Positions 3,928 to 35,670 of a DNA stretch of 64,000 nucleotides are shown here, in pieces (position 1 is the first letter of the stretch; every line of letters starts with the position of its first letter). Both the position numbers and the translations under genes were made by a program. The stretch is taken from positions 4,464,001 through 4,528,000 of the forward strand of contig NZ_CP134500.1 in assembly GCF_031760065.1 (NCBI RefSeq), read 5' to 3'. The notes beneath the pieces were generated by a model. It saw nothing but the letters and a program-made list of their open reading frames with translations. It had not been told where the DNA came from and did not search any database. The DNA is from Streptomyces durocortorensis (GTDB lineage: Bacteria; Actinomycetota; Actinomycetes; Streptomycetales; Streptomycetaceae).

Positions 3928-4563
3928 TCAGTAGGCGATGCCCACGCCCTGTTCCACGGTCCCCGGGTCGTCGAGCATCGCGAGCATCGCGTGCGCCACA
4001 TCGGCCCGGGAGATCGACCGGCCGCTGCGCGGCGTACCGCCCACCACCCGCCGGTAGACCCCGGTGCGCGGACCGTTCGTCAGCTTCGGGGGCCGTACCG
4101 ACGTCCAGTCCGCCGCACTGTGGGCCAGCACCGCCTCCATCCGGGCGAGATCCGCGTACAGATCCGACAGAATCGCCCCGATCACCCTGCGCGTCAGCCG
4201 GTCCATCAGCGGATCTCCCACCGCCTCGGGCCCGACCGGCGCCGCGCTCACCACCACCAGCCGCCGTACGTCCTCGGCCTCCATCGCCGTCAGGATCCGC
4301 CCGGTCAGCCGCTCGGCGATCCCGTTCGCCTTCCGGCCGCGCGAACCCAGCCCGGACAGCACCGCGTCCCGCCCGGCCACCGCCCCCCGCACCGCCGCCG
4401 CATCGTCCAGCGGGACGGCCGCGTGCAGCGCGGCGCCCGCCAGGGACTCCGGGAGCCCCGCGGGATCGCGGACCACGACCGTCACCTCGTGGCCCGCCGC
4501 CAGTGCCTGCCCCACGATCTCCCGGCCGACACCGCCGGTCGCTCCGAACACGGTGAGTCTCAT
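3928..4563 (-). CDS. SDR-like NAD(P)-binding oxidoreductase
   Basis: 211 residues. The N-terminus 'MRLTVFGATGGVGREIVGQALAAGHEVTVVVRD' is an atypical/extended SDR Rossmann motif (GATGGVG), as in NmrA-like and flavin-reductase-like proteins. The usual catalytic YxxxK is not evident; 'RLVVVSAAPVG' and 'DWTSVRPPKLTNG' resemble the BLVRB/NmrA subgroup. It is divergently transcribed from a TetR gene with a palindrome in between, so it is probably that repressor's target. The ATG 4561-4563 sits just after the operator. Substrate unknown. Confidence 0.85.
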   Translation of the reverse strand: MRLTVFGATGGVGREIVGQALAAGHEVTVVVRDPAGLPESLAGAALHAAVPLDDAAAVRGAVAGRDAVLSGLGSRGRKANGIAERLTGRILTAMEAEDVRRLVVVSAAPVGPEAVGDPLMDRLTRRVIGAILSDLYADLARMEAVLAHSAADWTSVRPPKLTNGPRTGVYRRVVGGTPRSGRSISRADVAHAMLAMLDDPGTVEQGVGIAY

Positions 4564-4581
4564 GGTGCGCCCCTCGGTGGG

Positions 4582-4595
4582 TGAGTGTTCACTAA
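4582..4595 (+). promoter_or_regulatory. Candidate TetR operator between divergent SDR and TetR genes
   Basis: TGAGTGTTCACTAA is an inverted repeat with one mismatch per arm (TTAGTG half-site, read on the minus strand as TTAGTGAACACTCA). It lies 19 bases upstream of the SDR ATG and upstream of a -10-like TAGGGT (4600-4605) for the TetR gene, so one bound dimer could repress both. Confidence 0.6.
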
Positions 4596-4662
4596 CCTCT
4601 AGGGTGGACGAACCCCGTGTGATCGTCAACACTTCCCGGGCCCACGCCCGCTTGGAGCACTC

Positions 4663-5253
4663 ATGGACCAGAAGCCCGCCCGCGCGCGGATCGTCGACGC
4701 GGCCCACGACCTGATGCTCTCCATCGGCCTCGCCCGGACCACCACCAAGGAGATCGCCCGGGCGGCCGACTGCTCCGAGGCGGCGCTCTACAAGCACTTC
4801 AGCAGCAAGGAGGAGCTGTTCGTCACCGTCCTCGCCGAACGGCTGCCCAAGCTCGGAAACCTGCTGAGCGGCCTGGCCGCCGGAGAGGGCGGCATCGAGG
4901 ACCACCTCACCGACATCGCCCGGCAGGCCGCCCTGTTCTACGAGCAGACCTTCCCGATGGCCGCCTCCCTGTACGCCGAACCCCAGCTCAAGCACCGCCA
5001 CGAGCAGGGCATGCGCGACCTGGGGACCGGCCCCCACCGCCCGATCCAGCAGCTCGACGCCTACCTGCGCGCCGAACAGGACGCAGGTCGGATCCGGGCG
5101 GACGCCGACACCTACGCCGCCGCCTCCCTGCTCCTCGGCGCCTGCGCCCAGCGGGCCTTCGCCTACTCCACGCTCCCCGGCGGCACGCCCCCGCAGCCCC
5201 TGGACGAGTTCGCCACCGCGATCGCCCGCACCCTGCTGGCCGGGATCAGCTAG
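4663..5253 (+). CDS. TetR family transcriptional regulator
   Basis: 196 residues. The helix-turn-helix is at about residues 8-52 ('RIVDAAHDLMLSIGLARTTTKEIARAADCSEAALYKHFSSKEELF'). A TetR C-terminal ligand domain follows. An SD (GGAG, 4654-4657) precedes ATG 4663. It is divergent from the SDR gene and likely controls it. Its last 8 bases overlap the convergent adenosine deaminase gene, so the two transcripts collide here. Confidence 0.92.
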   Translation: MDQKPARARIVDAAHDLMLSIGLARTTTKEIARAADCSEAALYKHFSSKEELFVTVLAERLPKLGNLLSGLAAGEGGIEDHLTDIARQAALFYEQTFPMAASLYAEPQLKHRHEQGMRDLGTGPHRPIQQLDAYLRAEQDAGRIRADADTYAAASLLLGACAQRAFAYSTLPGGTPPQPLDEFATAIARTLLAGIS

Positions 5254-6259
5254 CCAGCCAGTCGTCGATCCCCGACAGCAGCTTCTCCCGTACGTCGACG
5301 GGCGCCGCCGACCCCCGTACCGACTGGCGTGCCAGCTCGGCCAGCTCCTCGTCGGTGAAGCCGTGGTGACGGCGCACCAGCTCGTACTGGGCGGCCAGCC
5401 GCGAACCGAACAGCAGCGGGTCGTCCGCCCCCAGCGCCAGCGGCACGCCCGCGTCGAACAGGGTGCGCAGAGGGACGTCGGCGGGCTTCTCGTAGACGCC
5501 GAGCGCCACATTGGACGACGGGCAGACCTCGCAGGTCACCCCCCGCTCAGCGAGCTTGCGCAGCAGCCGGGGGTCCTCGGCGGCCCGGACGCCGTGGCCG
5601 ATGCGCGAGGCGTCCAGGTCGTCGAGGCAGTCGCGCACACTGGACGGCCCGGCCAGCTCGCCGCCGTGCGGAGCCGCCAGCAGGCCGCCGTCCCGCGCGA
5701 TGGCGAAGGCCCGGTCGAAGTCGCGGGCCATCCCCCGCCGCTCGTCGTTGGAGAGCCCGAAGCCCACGACGCCCCGGTCGGCGTACCGCACGGCCAGCCG
5801 CGCCAGGGTCCGGGCGTCCAGCGGGTGCTTCATCCGGTTGGCGGCGATCACCACGCGCATGCCCAGGCCGGTGTCCCGGGAGGCGCTGTCCACGGCGTCG
5901 AGGATGATCTCGATGGCCGGGATCAGCCCGCCGAGCAGCGGGGCGTACGAGGTGGGGTCGACCTGGATCTCCAGCCAGCCCGAGCCGTCCGCGACGTCCT
6001 CCTGGGCGCTCTCGCGGACCAGACGGTGGATGTCCTCGGGGGACCGCAGGCAGGACCGGGCGATGTCGTAGAGCCGCTGGAAACGGAACCAGCCGCGCTC
6101 GTCGGTGGCCCGCAGCTTGGGCGGCTCGCCGCCGGTCAGGGCGTCCGGGAGGTGGACCCCGTACTTGTCGGCCAGTTCGAGCAGGGTGGTGGGCCGCATC
6201 GACCCGGTGAAGTGCAGGTGCAGGTGGGCCTTGGGCAACAGACGTACATCACGCTCCAT
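5246..6259 (-). CDS. add: Adenosine deaminase-like protein
   Basis: 337 residues of the metal-dependent amidohydrolase fold. 'KAHLHLHFTGSM' gives the first HxH zinc ligands, 'RIGHGVRAAEDP' the conserved His/Arg segment, 'CEVCPSSNVALG' the substrate-binding strand and 'LALGADDPLLFGS' the paired catalytic aspartates. The family deaminates adenosine or related purine nucleosides for salvage. I prefer ATG 6257-6259, which has an AGGA SD about 8 bases upstream, over a GTG 18 bases further out. The conserved Streptomyces neighbourhood is murB–add–aspC–tRNA-Trp. Exact substrate (adenosine, adenine derivative or other) is not certain. Confidence 0.88.
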   Translation of the reverse strand: MERDVRLLPKAHLHLHFTGSMRPTTLLELADKYGVHLPDALTGGEPPKLRATDERGWFRFQRLYDIARSCLRSPEDIHRLVRESAQEDVADGSGWLEIQVDPTSYAPLLGGLIPAIEIILDAVDSASRDTGLGMRVVIAANRMKHPLDARTLARLAVRYADRGVVGFGLSNDERRGMARDFDRAFAIARDGGLLAAPHGGELAGPSSVRDCLDDLDASRIGHGVRAAEDPRLLRKLAERGVTCEVCPSSNVALGVYEKPADVPLRTLFDAGVPLALGADDPLLFGSRLAAQYELVRRHHGFTDEELAELARQSVRGSAAPVDVREKLLSGIDDWLAS

Positions 6260-26460: not shown

Positions 26461-27636
26461 TCAACGGGCGGGCAGCACGGCGGTGACGGTGAACGAGGGG
26501 CCCTCGGGGGCGGCGTGGAACGTTCCTCCGAGGGCGAGGGTCCGGCTCCGCATCCCGGTCAGGCCCTTGCCGCGCCGGGGCGCCGGGTCGGTGCGGAAGT
26601 CCGTTGTCACGGCCACGCCGTCGTTCCGTACGGTCAGGCGCACGTCGGACCCGTCCGCCCGCAGCTCTATCTCGCACCGGGACGCCCGGCTGTGCTGGAG
26701 GACGTTGCCCACGGCTTCGCGCAGGACCGCCCGCAGGCACTCGGCGGTGGCCGGGCCGGTCTCGACCCGGGGCGGCAGTGCGGTACGTACGGCTGTCCCG
26801 GACGCGGTCAGGACCCGCTGGGCGCGAGCCAGCTCGTCGGCGAGCGAGAAGTCTCCGGGGCCGGGGCTGCTGATCGCCCGTACATCGTCCTGGAGGCGTC
26901 GGGCCAGCCCCAGCATGTCGACGAGCGCGGCACGGGTCCCCTCACCCCCGGCCCCCTCGTGACCGGTCCCCTCACGGCCGGGGCCCTTCTCGCGCAGCGC
27001 CGTCTCCCCCTGAACGACGATCGCGGCGAGCGAGGAGCCGACCAGGTCGTGCAGGTCCTGGCGCATCCGGGCCCGTTCCCGCTGTTCCGCGAGGTGCGCC
27101 GCGTGCTCCCTGCTGCTGTGCAGCCGGGCCGAGAGCAGGGCCAGATGGGCGACGGCGAAGACCGTGCTCGCCGTGACCGCCGTACCGAGCAGGACGTTGA
27201 CCGGGCTCCGGTTCGTGACGATCAGACCGGTGGCGGCCAGTACCGGCCCGCTCGCCCCCACCGCCAGAGCGATCGGCACCGAGGCGTTCGGCGGCAGGGT
27301 GAGCAGCACGGCCCCGGCGAGGAAGCCCAGCAGACCCAGCCACCGGTAGTGGAAGAGCAGCAGCGGCAGATAGGTGAGGACCGCCTGCACCAGCAGTAGC
27401 CCCCACCGCCAGCGGTAGGGCAGCCGGTACGGCGGCGGTGCGTACTGGCCCAGCATGACCGCGGGCATCAGCACCAGCACGGTCAGACCGGCGACCACCG
27501 TCCGCTTGTTGAGCGGCGAGGCCGCCACGTCCAGGGCGACCAGGGCGAGCGACCCGAGCACCAGCACGACCAGGGCCCCGACGGCCACGCCCGCGCCCTG
27601 TGGCGCGCCCGTTCCCCGGCGTGCTTTCCGCCGCAT
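26461..27636 (-). CDS. Sensor histidine kinase (NarL/DesK type)
   Basis: 391 residues. About six TM helices fill the first ~200 residues (e.g. '[19 protein letters not shown]', '[18 protein letters not shown]', '[19 protein letters not shown]'). A HisKA_3 domain follows with the phospho-acceptor in '[20 protein letters not shown]', then a Gly/Glu repeat insertion ('[16 protein letters not shown]'), and a HATPase_c domain with '[15 protein letters not shown]' and '[16 protein letters not shown]'. I start at ATG 27634-27636 (SD GGGGGGA); an ATG 48 bases upstream has a poorly spaced SD. No response regulator is adjacent; the nearest is at 35071. Confidence 0.87.
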
Positions 27637-27846
27637 GTGTCCCCCCGACGTCGCGTTCCACGCCTCGTTCGCTGTACGGGCCATTCTTCCTCAGCCGGGG
27701 AGGAGCTCGGAGCCGTCCGGGGCGCGGGGACGCGCCGACCGGCCCGGAAACTCCGCGTACTTCGTGAAGCCTTCACTTCTCCGGCCCTGGCCCGCTTGCT
27801 TGGATCGCCTCTGTTCTGTGCCCGCTACAACAGAGAGTTGCTGACA

Positions 27847-30800
27847 GTGTCGGAGCGCATACCTCCCGCCGACGCGTGGGAGGGCTCATCGCTGGCCCTG
27901 CACCGGCGAAGACGGCTTCTGCCGCGGATCGCCCTCGGCGCCGCCATGGTCCTCGCGGTCGAGACCGCCCTGATGACCGAGAGCGGCCAGGCCGTGGCCC
28001 ATACCCGGCAGGCGCCGACGGCCCCGGCCGCCGCGAAGCAGGCGCCCGAGGGGCCGGGCGAGGCCGCGGACATCCTCTCGGCCAAGGTCGCCGCGAAGCT
28101 CTACGGCAAGCGGGTCGAGGCGCTGTCCGAGCGCACCGAGACCTCCACGACGTGGGTGAACAAGGACGGCTCGCTCACCACCGAGCTGTCGGCCGGTCCG
28201 GTCCGCTTCGAGGAGGGCGGTGCCTGGACCGACATCGACGTCGAACTCCGCGAGACCGCCGACGGTGTCGAGGCCAAGGCCCACCCGAACGGTCTGAGCA
28301 TGGCGGGCAAGGGCGGTGCGCTGCCGCGCTCGGTGCGCGAGGCGGACCGGGCCCCCGCACGCGACCTGGTGACCCTCGGCGAGGGCGACGAGCGGATCAC
28401 GCTCCAGTGGAAGGGGGGACTGCCCGCTCCCGAGCTGGACGGGACGCGTGCCACCTACCCCGAGGCGCTGCCGGGCGCGGACGTCGTCGTCGAGGCGACC
28501 CGTACGGGCTTCGAGCAGTACGTCGAGATCAAGAAGCGCCCGGCCGCCGGATACACGTACACCCTGCCGCTCAAGGCCAAGGGCCTGAAGGCGAAGGAGC
28601 AGCCCGACGGCAGCGTGCTGTTCACCGACCGGAAGAACGGCAAACGGGCCGTGATGCCCGCGCCGGTGATGTGGGACGCCACCGTCGACAAGGTCTCCGG
28701 CGAGCACACCCGCCGGGTGCCGGTGGCGATGAAGGTGGTGAAGCGGAAGGGGGCCGTCGATCTGGTCGTCACCCCGGACGCGGAGTTCCTCGCCGACCCG
28801 GAGACGAAGTACCCGGTGACGGTCGACCCGTCGACCTCGTCGCTGTCGAACGTCTTCGACACGTACGTCCAGCAGGGCGAGACCCGCGACTGGTCCACCG
28901 ATGTGGAGCTGGATTTCGGCAACCCCGGTACGACGAATGCGAACGGCACACCCCGTACCGCCCAGTCCTTCATCACCTGGAACACCGCGCCGATCGCCGA
29001 CGCCCTGGTCTCCAGCGCCAAGCTGAGCCTGTGGAACTTCCACTCGGCGAACACCACCTGCGCCGCCCAGCCGTGGCAGGTCTGGTCCTCGCCCGCCGCG
29101 TCCACGGCCAGCCGGTGGACCAACCGGCCGACGATGACCGCGCTGAAGGCCGAATCCACCGAGACGCGGGGCAACACCGCCTGCACGTCCCAGCCGGACG
29201 GCTGGATCAACGCGAACGTGACCACGCTGGCCCAGGAGTGGGCCGGTGCCAAGGCCTCCCGCGGCCACCTCGGCATCCGGGCCAAGAGCGAGACCACGGT
29301 CGCCCAGTGGAAGCGGGTGAACTCCGCCAACGCCGCGAAGAACCCGCCGAAGCTTTCGGTCACGTACAACTTCCGGCCGCGTACGGGCACCAAGCAGGAG
29401 GCGGGGCCGCCGTTCTTTTCCTACTCCGGCGTCTACATGGTCAACACCCTGACGCCGACCCTGCGTGACACCTTCGTCGATGCGGACGGGGACAAGGTCA
29501 ACGGCACCTTCCAGATCTTCGACAGCGCCACCGACAAGCAGGTCGGCAGCCCGATCGTGTCGAAGTTCGTGCCCTCCGGGCAGCCCGCCTCGGTGACCGT
29601 GCCGTCCGGGGTGCTGGCCGAGGGGAAGACGTACAAGTTCCGTACGAGCCCCTATGACGGTACGCACTACAACACCGGCTGGTCGGCCTGGAAGACCTTC
29701 ACGGTCGACACCAAGGCGCCGTCCGCCCCGACGAAGATCGCCTCCACGGACTATCCGCCCGGCCAGTGGGTCAAGGGCGAGGGGCAGCCGGGCGTCTTCA
29801 CGGTCACCCCGCCGAGCGGGTCCGACCACAACTGGCTGGAATGGTCTTTGGACGGGGTGACCTGGACCAAGGTCGCCACCGGTGGCGCCGCGGCGAACAA
29901 GGCGATCACCGTCACCCCGCCGAAGAATGGGAGCCATACCCTCTCGGTGCGGTCCGTCGACAAGGCGGACAACAAGTCCGAGGTGGTGGACTACCTCTTC
30001 CACGCCGGTTCGGGCGGCTTCGTCCAGCCCTCGGAGGGTGAGCGGACCGCGCGCCGGCTGCCGCTGGTCGCCGAGGCGGAGGCCGGGAAGTACACCGCCG
30101 TCTCCTTCTCCTGGCGGCGCTCCGAGGCCGACCCCTGGGTGCGGATCCCCGTCGGAGACGTCACCTCCGGCGGCAGCGCGCTCACAGCCTGGCCGGTCCC
30201 GCTGACGAACGGTCGGAACGCCCCGCTGGTGTGGAACGCCACCAGCACCGTCGACCCCGACGGCACCGTCCAGCTCAAGGCCGACTTCACCGGCCCGAAC
30301 TCCGCCACCAGCAGCACCGTGCCGCTGACCGCGGTCGTCGACCGCAACGCGGACGGCGCGGCCACCACCGAGGTGGGCCCGGGCTCGGTCAATCTGCTCA
30401 CCGGCAACTACACGCTCTCCGAGACCGACGTGTCGCTCTTCGACCTGTCGGTGTCGCGTACGGCCGCCTCGCGCACCCCGAACCGGGGCGCCGACCAGGA
30501 GGGCCAGGCCGCGATCTTCGGCAAGGAGTGGGTCTCCGGCACCGCCGCAGAGGCCACCGAGTCCGACTACAGCCACGTCCGGCGCGTCGCCGACACCGCG
30601 GTCGACGTGGTGCTGGAGGAGGGCGACTCGATCCACTTCACCGCGAACGCGGCGAGGAACGGGTGGGTCCCGGAGCCCGGCTCCGAGGACCTGACCCTCA
30701 AGGGCAGCGTGAGCGGCACGTTCACACTCTCCGACACCGAAGGGACGGTCACGACCTTCACCAAGGCGGACGCGGCGGCGACCACCTGGCAGGTCAGCAC

Positions 30801-33800
30801 CACCCTCTTCGACGGCCTCGCCAACTCCACCACCAAGGTGATCTCCGAGACCGTCACGGTCGGCGGCAAGAAGCTGGCTCGCCCCAAGCGGATCATCGCC
30901 CCGACCTCGGCCGCCACTACGGCCGCATGCGAGACGTCACCGGCCACCAAGGGCTGCAAGGTCCTGGAGTTCGTCTACGCGACCACCACCACGGCCACCG
31001 GCACGGAGACGAACGCCCAGTTCGGCGACTTCACCGGCCAGGTCCGTGAGATCCGCGCCTGGACCACCAGCCCCGGCGCCTCCGCCGCCACGGCCACCGC
31101 GGTCGCCACCTACCGCTACGACTCCAACGGCAGCCTCCGCCAGCAGTGGGACCCCCGTCTCAGCCAGGCCTCCCAGACGCAGTACGCCTACTACGGGGGC
31201 CGGGTCACCTGGCTCCAGCAGCAGAGCCAGCTCCCGTACACCTTCACCTACGGCAACGCCGGAGCCGGTACGGCACCCAGCGACGGCATGCTGCTCAAGT
31301 CTTCACGCCAGGCCCTCAAGCAGGGCACCGCCGACACGGTCGAGGGCAACGCGGTGACGAGCGTCGTCTACGGGGTCCCGCTCACCGGGGCCAAGGCTCC
31401 GTACGCCATGGGCGCGACCTCCGTGGCGGCCTGGGGCCAGCTCGACCACCCCACGGACGCCACCGCGGTCTTCCCCGCCGACGCCGTCCCGGCCTCGCAC
31501 GACGGCGCCGACCTGGCCTCCGGCGGATACCGCCGGGCCGCGGTGACCTATCTCAACGCCTCCGGCCGTACGGTCAACTCGGCCACGCCCGGCGGCCACA
31601 TCTCGGCCACCGAGTACGACCGCTTCGGCAACACCGTCCGTGAGCTCACCGCGGGCAACCGGGCACTGGCGCTCGGCACCACGGCGGACGACCGCCACAG
31701 CCTCACCGACCTCGGCATCATCGGGCGCGCCTCGGCCGAGCGGGCGCACCTGCTCTCCACGACGTCCGTCTACGACGAGCGCGGGGCGCGGGAGCTGGAG
31801 GAGTTCGGCCCGATCAGGCGGGTGGACCTGACCGAGGACCTCAAGGAAGGGAGCACCGTCCTGGTCGAGGCCGGTACCTCGGTTCCGGCCCGGTCGTGGA
31901 CGGTGAAGGAGTACGACGAGGGCCGCCCGACCGACGGCACGGCCACGGTCCGGGACCAGGTCACCCTGAGCGTCACCGGCGCGCGGGTCCGCGACTACTA
32001 CTCCGCGATGGGGGAGAAGCGGGTCGAGTCCGTCCAGTACGACTGGGCCAAGGGTCTGCCCACGCTCACCACCAAGGACGCCGGCGGTCTCGACCTGACC
32101 ACGACTACCGGGTACGACGCCCAGGGCCGGGTCACCTCCCAGGTGCTGCCCGGGGGTACGGGCGGCGACGCCGCCACCCGGATCACCGAGTACTGGTCGG
32201 CCACCGGCACCGGCTGGTGCAAGGGCCGCCCGGAGTGGGCGGACCGGGTGTGCTGGACAGGACCGGCGGGTGACATCACCGGCGGTGGCTCCCAGCCGAA
32301 CAAGCTGGTGAACACGACCGTGGAGTACGACCGCTGGGGCAACCCGGCCACCGTCACCGACGAGGTCGGCGGGGTGCACCGGACGACCACGACGACGTAC
32401 GACGGTGCCGGCCGGCCGGTCTTCTCGAAGATCGCGGGCGGCCTCGGTCAGGCGGTCCCGGAGACCACCACCGAGTACGACGCGGCCACCGGACAGGTCA
32501 CCAAGGTCATCTCGCCCACCGGCGGAACGGTCACCAAGGCGTACGACCAGCTCGGCCGGCTGATCTCCTACACCGACGCCGACGGCGGTGTCACGAAGAC
32601 CGAGTACGACCTGCTCGACCGCCAGGTCAAGGTCGCCGACTCGGTCCCGTCCACCGTGACGTACACCTACGACCACACCGCCGAGCCGCGCGGTCTGCCC
32701 ACGCGTACCACGGACTCGGTCGCCGGGTCCTTCTCCGCGACGTACGACGCCGACGGGTCGGTCGCCACCGAGAAGCTGCCCGGCGGCTACACGCTGAGCG
32801 TCACCGAGGACACCACCGGTTCCACCGCCTCGCGCGTCTACACCCGGGACAGCGACGGCATGACCGTCTTCAGCGACCGGGTCGGCGAGTCCGTCCACGG
32901 TCAGGTCACCGGCCACCAGGGCTGGTCCAGCCAGACCTACCGCTACGACCGGACCGGGCGGCTGACCAGTGTCGACGACACGGCGGGTGAAGTCTGCACC
33001 CGCCGTGCCTACACCTTCGACAAGCGCACCAACCGCACGTCCCTGACTACGTCGGCCGCCGCCTCCGGCGCCGACTGCACCTCCACAGGAGCCACCACCA
33101 CGACCTACACCTACGACAGCGCCGACCGTCTTGTCGGCCCCGGCCACACCTACGACGCCTTCGGCCGCACCACCGTGCTGCCGGGCACCACCATCGGCTA
33201 CTACGCCAATGACCTGGTCCACCGGCAGACGGCCGGCGACCAGCGCCAGACCTGGCAGCTCGACGCCGGACTGCGCTTCCGCTCCTGGACGGTGGAGACG
33301 GGTTCCGGCTCCACCTGGACCCGCACCGGGGCGAAGCTCAACCACTACGACAGCGACAGCGACAACCCGCGCTGGATCGTGGAGGACACCGGGACCGGTG
33401 CGCTGAGCCGCAATGTCGAGGCCGCGTCGGGCGACCTCGCGGCCACCACGTCCAAGACCGGTGACACGGTGCTCCAGCTCTCCACCGTCCACGGTGACGT
33501 GGCCCTCCAGCTCCCGCTGGACGCGGGCCGGGCTCCCGTCGCCCTGGACAGCGACGAGTACGGCAACCCCCGCGAGGGCCAGGAAGCCACCCGCTACACC
33601 TGGCTCGGCGCCAAGCAGCGCTCGACGGAGACGCTGACCGGCCTCACGCTCATGGGCGCGCGCCTCTACAACCCGGCCACCGGCCGGTTCCTCTCGGTGG
33701 ACCCGGTGTACGGGGGCAACCTGAACGCCTACGAGTACGCGCACGCGGATCCGCTCAACCGGTTCGACCTGGATGGCAGGTGGAGCTGGCGCAAGGCCCG

Positions 33801-34134
33801 CGGGTGGGTGAAGAGGAAAGTGGGATGTACCGCGACCAAGTGTCTCTTCTTCAACAAGAGGAACCGGCATTTCGTCATGCGGGACGGCCGCCCCGGTATC
33901 CACCTCAGGAACCACCGGATTCGCGGGGAGTGGGATCGCCATAATGGCTGGCATGTAAACGTCGGGAAGAAGCACTACCGCGCCCGCGATGCCAGGAGAG
34001 CCGTCACCCGGTGGGGCGGCAGGGCAGTGCGGGGCCTCGGGAGGGCCAGCCGTCGGTGGGGTCCGCCGATCTGGATCCCCGACGAGTTCCACCGCTATCG
34101 GAACCCCTGCTACAAGCGGTCCTGCGTCGCGTAG
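27847..34134 (+). CDS. Secreted DNRLRE/RHS (YD-repeat) polymorphic toxin-like protein
   Basis: 2095 residues from GTG 27847 (SD-like AGAGAG; the frame is open further upstream). The N-terminus has four Arg, a hydrophobic core '[20 protein letters not shown]' and a likely cleavage after AVA, a Sec signal peptide with a long n-region. A DNRLRE-type region begins near residue 320 ('[11 protein letters not shown]', '[10 protein letters not shown]', '[11 protein letters not shown]'), then Ig-like linkers. YD repeats run from about residue 1080 ('YDSNGSLRQ', '[10 protein letters not shown]', '[16 protein letters not shown]') to the RHS core end '[17 protein letters not shown]…[10 protein letters not shown]' (~1978). 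The last ~117 residues are a basic tip (32 K/R, 6 D/E, four Cys, seven His). Such proteins carry C-terminal toxins across the envelope; tip activity unknown. Confidence 0.9.
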
Positions 34135-34150
34135 CCCTTCGTAGTCGAAC

Positions 34151-34196
34151 GTCTGTCGGCCCACTCGGCCCGCCCCGGCCGGGTGGGCCGACAGAC
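34151..34196 (+). terminator. Hairpin between the RHS gene and the small downstream gene
   Basis: A perfect 14-bp stem (GTCTGTCGGCCCAC at 34151-34164 with 34183-34196) enclosing an 18-base G/C-rich loop. It ends 19 bases before the ATG at 34216 and has no T-run. It could terminate the toxin transcript or act as an attenuator separating it from the candidate immunity gene. Confidence 0.65.
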
Positions 34197-34215
34197 CCAC
34201 GAGAGAAGCGAACAG

Positions 34216-34668
34216 ATGCACTACTTCGAAGCGGCGTCCGCCCGCGACATGGAGCTCTTCCTCCAGCAGCTGGCGCCCGAACTGGACGCGGCCGGGGCGA
34301 GGACTCTTCTCGACCTCTACACCGACGAGCCGATGGACGCCCCGCGTGCGCAGGACGCACTCCAGGCGATGAGCGCCATCGCCGAGCAGGCGTCCTCCTC
34401 CACACGCCGGCGCGGATCCTCGCGGTCCCGCGACCCCCTGATGGGGGTGGAGGTCGACCTCCACGACCCGGTGCAGGCCGGCCACTTCGCCCTGCTGGCC
34501 CACCGCGTCATCAACGCGGAAGCCTGGTGCGGGGAGGGCCGCCAGGTCTTCGGGACCGTCGAGTCACCGACCCGTGTCTGGGTCGAACTGCCCCGGGAGG
34601 TCGTCGAGAAGCTGCTCGACGACGGGCGGCGGGCCGGAGCCTCGCTCACCGTCCGGCCCGCGGGGTGA
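34216..34668 (+). CDS. Candidate immunity protein for the RHS tip (unknown family)
   Basis: 150 residues from ATG 34216 (GAGAG upstream). I do not recognise the family. It has no signal or TM segment, so it is cytoplasmic, and it is mildly acidic, opposite to the basic tip of the RHS protein. Residues 1-60 look helical ('ARDMELFLQQLAPELDAAGARTLLDLYTDEP'); 62-72 is a Ser/Arg linker ('SSSTRRRGSSRSR'); the rest has β-like strands ('MGVEVDLHDP', 'TRVWVELP'). The role is inferred only from position and charge, following the toxin–immunity gene order of polymorphic toxin loci. Confidence 0.6.
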   Translation: MHYFEAASARDMELFLQQLAPELDAAGARTLLDLYTDEPMDAPRAQDALQAMSAIAEQASSSTRRRGSSRSRDPLMGVEVDLHDPVQAGHFALLAHRVINAEAWCGEGRQVFGTVESPTRVWVELPREVVEKLLDDGRRAGASLTVRPAG

Positions 34669-34850: not shown

Positions 34851-35102
34851 GTGACAGGGCTGACTAAACGCGAGAGAACCGAGATCGCCGCCGTCCGGGC
34901 GGTGGCGGTCCTGGTGTACGCCCTGGCGCTCCTGTGCGCGATGCTCGAAGGCCCGCGTCTGCTCCTCTACTTCCTGCCCGCCCTGCTCGGCTCCCTGATC
35001 GCGGTGTGGTGCGTACGGCAGGGAGTGCTGGCCGCCGTGAGAGGCCGAGCCGTCGGCGATAATCGGCCGAGTGATTACGGTGCTGGTGGTCGACGACCAT
35101 GA
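34851..35102 (+). CDS. Small two-TM membrane protein upstream of the response regulator
   Basis: 83 residues from GTG 34851 (GGGGGAG upstream). 'EIAAVRAVAVLVYALALLCAML' and 'LLLYFLPALLGSLIAVWCVRQGVLA' are hydrophobic helices, and the tail is polar. Its last 32 bases overlap the response-regulator gene in another frame, so the two are translationally coupled. Unknown function; a sensor accessory role is only a guess. Confidence 0.6.
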   Translation: MTGLTKRERTEIAAVRAVAVLVYALALLCAMLEGPRLLLYFLPALLGSLIAVWCVRQGVLAAVRGRAVGDNRPSDYGAGGRRP

Positions 35103-35670
35103 CGTGGTGCGGTCCGGCCTGACGGCACTCCTGTCGGCGGAGCTCGGCATCCAGGTGGTCGGCCAGGCGGCGGACGGCCCTGCCGCGCTCGCCGAGGCGG
35201 AGCGGCTGCGCCCGGATGTGGCGCTGCTCGACATCGACCTGCCCGGGGTGGACGGGATAGCCGTCGCCACCCGGCTGGCGCAGACCCTGCCCGGCTGCCG
35301 CACGCTGATGCTGACCGCGCTCGACCGCCCCGGCCATCTGCGGCGGGCGCTGGCCGCCGGGGCCGCCGGATATCTGCTCAAGAGCGCCACCCCGGCGCAG
35401 ACCGCCGACGCCATCCGGCGGATCGTCGCGGGCGGCCGGGTCATCGACCCCCGGATGCACGGGGAGGCGGACGGGCCCAGTCCGCTCACCGACAAGGAGA
35501 CGGAAGCCCTGCGGCTGGCCGCCGGGGGAGCGCACGCCCGGGAGATCGCCGCCGACCTGTTCCTCAGCGTGGGGACCGTACGCAACCGGCTCTCGTCGGC
35601 GGTCGGGAAGCTCCACGCCCGTACCCTCGTCGACGCGCTGCGCATCGCCGGGCACAACGGGTGGCTGTAG
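35071..35670 (+). CDS. NarL/FixJ-family response regulator (DesR-like)
   Basis: 199 residues from GTG 35071. The receiver domain begins 'ITVLVVDDHDVVRSGL' with acidic pocket DD, the phospho-acceptor in 'VALLDIDLPGVDG', Thr in 'LMLTALDRPG' and Lys in 'GYLLKSATP'. The LuxR-type HTH is 'PLTDKETEALRLAAGGAHAREIAADLFLSVGTVRNRLSSAVGKL'. The start lacks a clear SD and overlaps the preceding small membrane gene. The only histidine kinase in the window of a matching class (HisKA_3) is at 26461-27636, on the far side of the RHS locus. Confidence 0.92.
   Translation: MITVLVVDDHDVVRSGLTALLSAELGIQVVGQAADGPAALAEAERLRPDVALLDIDLPGVDGIAVATRLAQTLPGCRTLMLTALDRPGHLRRALAAGAAGYLLKSATPAQTADAIRRIVAGGRVIDPRMHGEADGPSPLTDKETEALRLAAGGAHAREIAADLFLSVGTVRNRLSSAVGKLHARTLVDALRIAGHNGWL

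Follow-up and report, generated by a model that had tools for sequence, protein, structure and literature searches.

An RHS gene in the window analysed here (64,000 nt of Streptomyces durocortorensis DNA) ends in a tail that very likely serves a secreted polymorphic toxin of the RHS/WapA type as its exchangeable toxin tip. The 150-residue gene behind it is very probably the cognate immunity gene (Table 1). Three sets of comparisons lead to this assignment: the RHS core is kept while tips vary, a rare tip family is linked to its partner gene, and tip and partner diverge together. The hallmarks of an RHS/WapA system found by sequence were RHS/YD repeats, a core, a variable tip, a cleavage-pair motif and a linked small gene.

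Table 1. Features of the putative toxin–immunity locus, with positions in the window
Feature	Position	Strand	Basis or detail
RHS/YD-repeat carrier gene	27847..34134	+	2,095 aa from GTG 27847; stop 34132-34134
DNRLRE domain	28858..29364	+	NF033679, E 1.8e-16; residues 408-576 of the frame from 27637
RHS-associated core domain	33556..33777	+	TIGR03696, E 4e-14; residues 1974-2047; core/tip boundary at its end
Predicted aspartyl self-cleavage pair DPVY-X18-DLDG	33700..33777	+	two Asp 22 residues apart
Putative polymorphic toxin tip, 118 aa	33778..34131	+	11-sequence alignment A3, purifying selection, tip variability
Hairpin, 20 pairs (wobble included), 6-nt loop	34151..34196	+	RNA fold of 34132-34215
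Putative immunity gene, 150 aa, acidic alpha/beta protein	34216..34668	+	follows tip in 7/7 loci; AF2 model

The carrier protein matched RHS_repeat PF05593 in Pfam (E 7.2e-10) and the Rhs_assc_core and YD repeat profiles in an NCBIfam-type scan. Its start was set by comparison with homologues of 1,782-2,078 aa and is probably the GTG given in Table 1, rather than the first in-frame GTG (27637). A hydrophobic N-terminal segment, judged by eye, is a probable Sec signal, and the core closes with a ten-residue stretch encoded at 33748-33777. Related sequences were collected with a pattern in which the second Asp is obligatory, and 18/19 of them have the first predicted cleavage Asp as well; loci L038, L043, L044, L045 and L046 were missed by this pattern and are not among the 19. 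The sole exception was a broken RHS copy in another Streptomyces genome, G141 (locus L002), which has suffered a large internal loss and a frame change and carries Val at this position; its tip and immunity gene are both still open. The RHS–immunity unit sits between a tuf-like and an S10-like gene, and is flanked by a sensor-kinase-like gene (26461-27684, minus strand) and a LuxR-type response-regulator-like gene (35071-35670, plus strand), both named by eye. In genome G014 (L051, 6753-8546), homologues of both regulators (54% and 59%) lie next to an RHS gene that has a different tip, and the surrounding genes differ as well.

The initial annotation had described a basic tail of 117 residues after the core. 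The tail was confirmed and its length corrected to 118 residues, since the earlier boundary lay one codon late. Its composition was as first described, with 32 K/R in 117 residues (33 in 118), 6 D/E, seven His and four Cys, and no core stretch of the same length contained more than 21 K/R. The proposed excess of A/T-ending codons was also evident: GC3 in the tail was 0.847, lower than in all 1,830 core stretches of that length (minimum 0.898, mean 0.946). Each of the 12 further tips from relatives likewise has more K/R than D/E, hydrophobic tips included, and therefore positive charge alone is no argument for a nuclease.

These 12 tips came from a core-end search of 61 genomes (own included), which added 12 RHS genes, spread over 9 genomes other than our own. 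Their core ends were 49-84% identical and their tips had no significant similarity to the present one. In agreement with the expectation that tips differ between related RHS genes, unrelated tips thus follow a conserved core in all 12 genes, and also in the plasmid record NZ_CP107864.1. A Pfam scan of 4/12 other tips identified one DUF6973 (E 8.1e-9) and one that resembles Tox-URI2 below the cut-off (E 0.0029), and two matched nothing; among the L035 and L037-L046 tips, the scan covered L035, L042 and L044. NZ_CP107864.1 (S. europaeiscabiei; L031, 169000-183000) contains two convergent RHS genes that share 5,817 identical nt. The tip starts after nt 5,808, with the divergence falling just past the DLDG boundary, and one gene carries the present tip family and the other an unrelated tip. 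A second plasmid, NZ_CP108040.1 (L059, 133896-149574), has a convergent RHS pair with 99.98% identity over 5,559 nt and two different tips, neither of which, by eye, belongs to the present family. Inversion between such convergent, near-identical copies could exchange tips.

As first proposed, neither the tip nor the small protein could be placed in a recognised family. Neither gave a usable sequence match in Pfam, NCBIfam, PHROGs or PDB; rows in the first three were weak (best E 0.04), with none over the cut-off, and this included the known immunity families of Pfam and NCBIfam searched with the 150-aa protein. Protein searches with the tip retrieved P0001-P0004 (63-78% identity), and a search started from a plasmid tip retrieved P0009-P0011 besides P0001. 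Further tip matches lay in 4 plasmid records and 2 genome contigs. Within the genus, 2/392 genomes had the tip (own and G141), on which single-sequence and profile searches agreed, and it was not found in the phages or viral contigs searched. Such rarity appears cassette-like. The 11 aligned tips share 20 invariant columns (T20, K21, F24, F25, M34, R35, G37, P39, H42, N45, H46, R49, E51, W52, D53, W58, H59, N61, H66 and R78). The tip is under purifying selection, with dN/dS of 0.08-0.35 in six pairs at dS of 1.1-2.2, which is near saturation. Judged by these comparisons, it is a rare, genuine protein family.

Two subfamilies were distinguished. Subfamily I (the present tip, P0001-P0004 and G141) has four Cys (C17, C22, C111 and C116 in the present tip) and a C-terminal extension. 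Subfamily II (the plasmid tips, L030 and P0009-P0011; 43-52% identity) has neither, which suggests that the Cys may pin the extension, via zinc or disulfides. An extra C-x3-C pair occurs just before MRDG in the subfamily II tips of L025, L027, L030 and P0009, and is missing from P0010 and P0011.

The partner gene encodes 150 residues, as annotated, from an ATG 81 nt after the RHS stop. The description of its product as mildly acidic fits a calculated pI of 5.2, obtained for a 161-aa form from an upstream GTG. Its AF2 model (pLDDT 93.2, pTM 0.87) confidently predicts a ferredoxin-like alpha/beta fold, and the protein has no hydrophobic stretch (highest 19-residue mean hydropathy 0.61).

A homologue of this protein is encoded directly downstream of the tip in 7/7 distinct readable loci (own, L002, L025, L026, L027, L029 and L030; at least three on plasmids), with gaps of 67-116 nt; at these loci the tail never occurred without the adjacent small gene. 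This count excludes CP003721.1, a near copy of CP003276.1, and L065, which has the same match values as L029; CP003721.1 agrees by coordinates, and by coordinates tip and partner adjoin in 4/4 plasmid records. P0002, P0004, P0009 and P0011, whose flanks lie outside the readable set, were likewise left uncounted. The P0001 tip is that of L029, and the RHS protein P0003 and the immunity homologue P0008 bear the same strain name. At the 12 relatives' RHS loci with other tips, a partner homologue was found in none (flanks of 109 nt for L037 and >1 kb for the other 11). Seven loci make a small sample; across it, tip and partner distances correlated (Mantel r 0.73; 34/5,040 permutations gave a value as high), which partly reflects the two deep subfamilies. 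In the gene table of L025 (CP003276.1), the immunity gene (4360-4812) is missing, and its place is covered by a hypothetical gene entered for the other strand.

The partner family extends well beyond the tip. Homologues occurred in 22/392 genomes, and 20 of these 22 had no tip match, so part of the immunity family must do another job or guard against other toxins. An order-wide profile search located the family in 11/147 genomes, two of them outside the genus, and at seven of these partner loci besides our own a tip adjoined at L065 alone. On these counts, most copies either stand as orphans or serve other toxins. The homologues at L005-L024 and L066-L071 have no matching tip and make up a broad, uncharacterised family. 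An orphan homologue on an S. finlayi plasmid (L028, NZ_CP045703.1, 4995-5426) lies near ParA/ParB and a short transposase gene.

The 84-nt stretch from the RHS stop codon to the start of the immunity gene (34132-34215) folds at -52.4 kcal/mol (z -6.8). Strong hairpins of differing sequence occupied the toxin–immunity gap at 7/7 family loci (z -3.3 to -6.8; gaps of 70-119 nt including the stop codon, 200 base shuffles each). Flanks of other tips also folded strongly, with z <= -3.3 in 7/15 (first 100 nt, 100 shuffles each); therefore, the hairpin is not peculiar to the present tip family. A hairpin between the genes of a co-transcribed pair is unusual, and counts against the toxin–immunity reading. 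One possibility is a terminator, which would leave the immunity gene to be expressed independently or by read-through.

How the system might work can be proposed largely by analogy. In bacterial teneurin-like RHS proteins, according to PMC13018210, the chain is severed ahead of the toxin by a pair of such Asp. For a Streptococcus suis WapA with DNRLRE and RHS regions, PMC12704120 reports Sec export, self-cleavage and inhibition of neighbours. Here, the RHS protein would be exported by Sec, its shell would enclose the tip, and aspartyl self-cleavage at DLDG would release the tip, which would then enter competing related cells. The tip would act in the cytosol, because the immunity protein is soluble, acidic, signal-less and free of hydrophobic stretches. 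Our guess is that it would cut RNA through its invariant His, Arg, Glu and Asp residues, and the immunity protein would bind and block it inside the producer.

With respect to activity, the tip is somewhat more likely than not a nuclease of some kind; an RNase, the enzyme we favour, has about an even chance. The invariant His/Asn/Arg/Glu/Asp set appears to be better evidence for an enzyme than charge. The structure model of the tip is poor (pLDDT 47.6) and unreliable, so it offers no fold in support of a catalytic site. At this low confidence it has helices at 3-14 and 19-25, then five strands, then a helix. In BECR-fold RNases, which are alpha + beta proteins, the helices precede a sheet of four strands. 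A more specific and tentative proposal is that the tip represents a new toxin family whose catalytic site (H42, N45, H46, R49, E51, D53, H59, N61 and H66) is its own, with a new family of ferredoxin-like immunity proteins as its partner. The two would move among convergent identical RHS copies on Streptomyces plasmids, where inversion could swap tips, and the hairpin would separate toxin and immunity expression.

We judge it unlikely that the tip is instead a diverged member of the colicin E3 fold, with EWD and His66 forming a reduced Tox-ColE3 (PF09000) site, i.e. the Asp and second His, on three neighbouring strands. Like colicin E3, the tips have EWD followed 13-16 residues on by a conserved His. 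D53 and H66, the putative counterparts, are invariant in 11/11 tips and 13 or 15 residues apart; the spacing is 15 in two PF09000 domains from Streptomyces and 16 in colicin E3 itself. In the weak tip model, D53 ends one strand and H66 lies two strands further on. PMC3482391 states that the first active-site His of colicin E3 is not conserved across the fold and that the second is. However, colicin E3 has two more active-site residues, the first His and Glu, whose positions are not conserved in the tips, and the DPxTG stretch is absent. Profile similarity was at best weak and not significant: a tip profile scored 0.9-2.2 bits against three ColE3 domains in hmmsearch (composition correction off), values reached by 43/1,882, 207/1,977 and 131/1,889 scored shuffles. 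In hhalign, the probability was 0.7% (E 0.076, 10 columns), and Pfam gave no PF09000 row for 8 tips. In addition, the resemblance was chosen after the fact. PMC3482391 describes Ntox9, which follows RHS repeats in one Streptomyces protein, as largely beta, lists Arg, Glu, Trp and His as its conserved residues, and likens its mechanism to colicin E3. The Ntox9 motifs given there, RxY and WxE, are not invariant in the present tip.

Equally doubtful is a metal-dependent nuclease of the HNH/His-Me finger type, with a site made up of H42, N45-H46, H59, N61 and H66. The dense invariant His and Asn between residues 42 and 66 would suit such an enzyme, but the tip had no HNH-type Pfam row and the weak model, five strands and then a helix, has no clear beta-beta-alpha unit.

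A membrane-active or peptidoglycan-directed toxin is improbable, even though the tip is basic and several other tips are hydrophobic. The tip itself has no hydrophobic stretch (top 19-residue mean hydropathy 0.14), and nor does its partner. By comparison, the hydrophobic tips of L039 and L041 precede frames with hydrophobic stretches (2.44 and 2.30). This association is imperfect, as the hydrophilic tip of L046 precedes a frame with a stretch of 2.18, and the simple gene filter used gave no downstream frame for five loci and the second L031 gene. For peptidoglycan, a GH25-like match was marginal and covered 22 residues. Least probable is that the tail is a structural or surface-binding RHS end and the small gene, whose family is indeed widespread without tips, a fortuitous neighbour, given the 7/7 linkage, the core/tip mosaic with 5.8 kb of identity, and sibling tips of toxin-type families.

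Returning to the toxin–immunity assignment, the locus resembles the Gram-positive WapA/RHS toxins, as represented by S. suis WapA-CT1 in PMC12704120, in its DNRLRE region, RHS core, probable Sec-type N-terminus, variable C-terminal toxin, adjacent immunity gene and self-cleavage (here predicted). In contrast, the toxin families named in that paper (NucB-like and colicin E5-like) differ from the present tip family, and the SecF-like and sortase genes it places upstream of S. suis wapA were not noticed among the neighbours in our window. The hairpin between toxin and immunity gene is a further difference from WapA-CT1. The closest counterparts are the Streptomyces plasmids CP003276.1, NZ_CP027023.1 and NZ_CP107864.1 and the RHS proteins P0001-P0004 and P0009-P0011, which share the tip motif and core boundary and, where readable, have the same immunity family next door. 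In the open-access library searched, we found no paper on this tip family or on such Streptomyces RHS toxins, although others may exist.

In conclusion, the type of system is known; its toxin belongs to a family with no entry in the libraries searched and is very probably antibacterial, and its neighbour is very probably protective. The locus would bring two families absent from those libraries, one of toxins and one of immunity proteins, to a widespread type of weapon on which our literature searches turned up little for Streptomyces. The two plasmids on which identical or near-identical RHS genes differ in the tip alone provide a direct and testable case of tip exchange, and the broad spread of immunity homologues without tips offers a ready test of orphan immunity.
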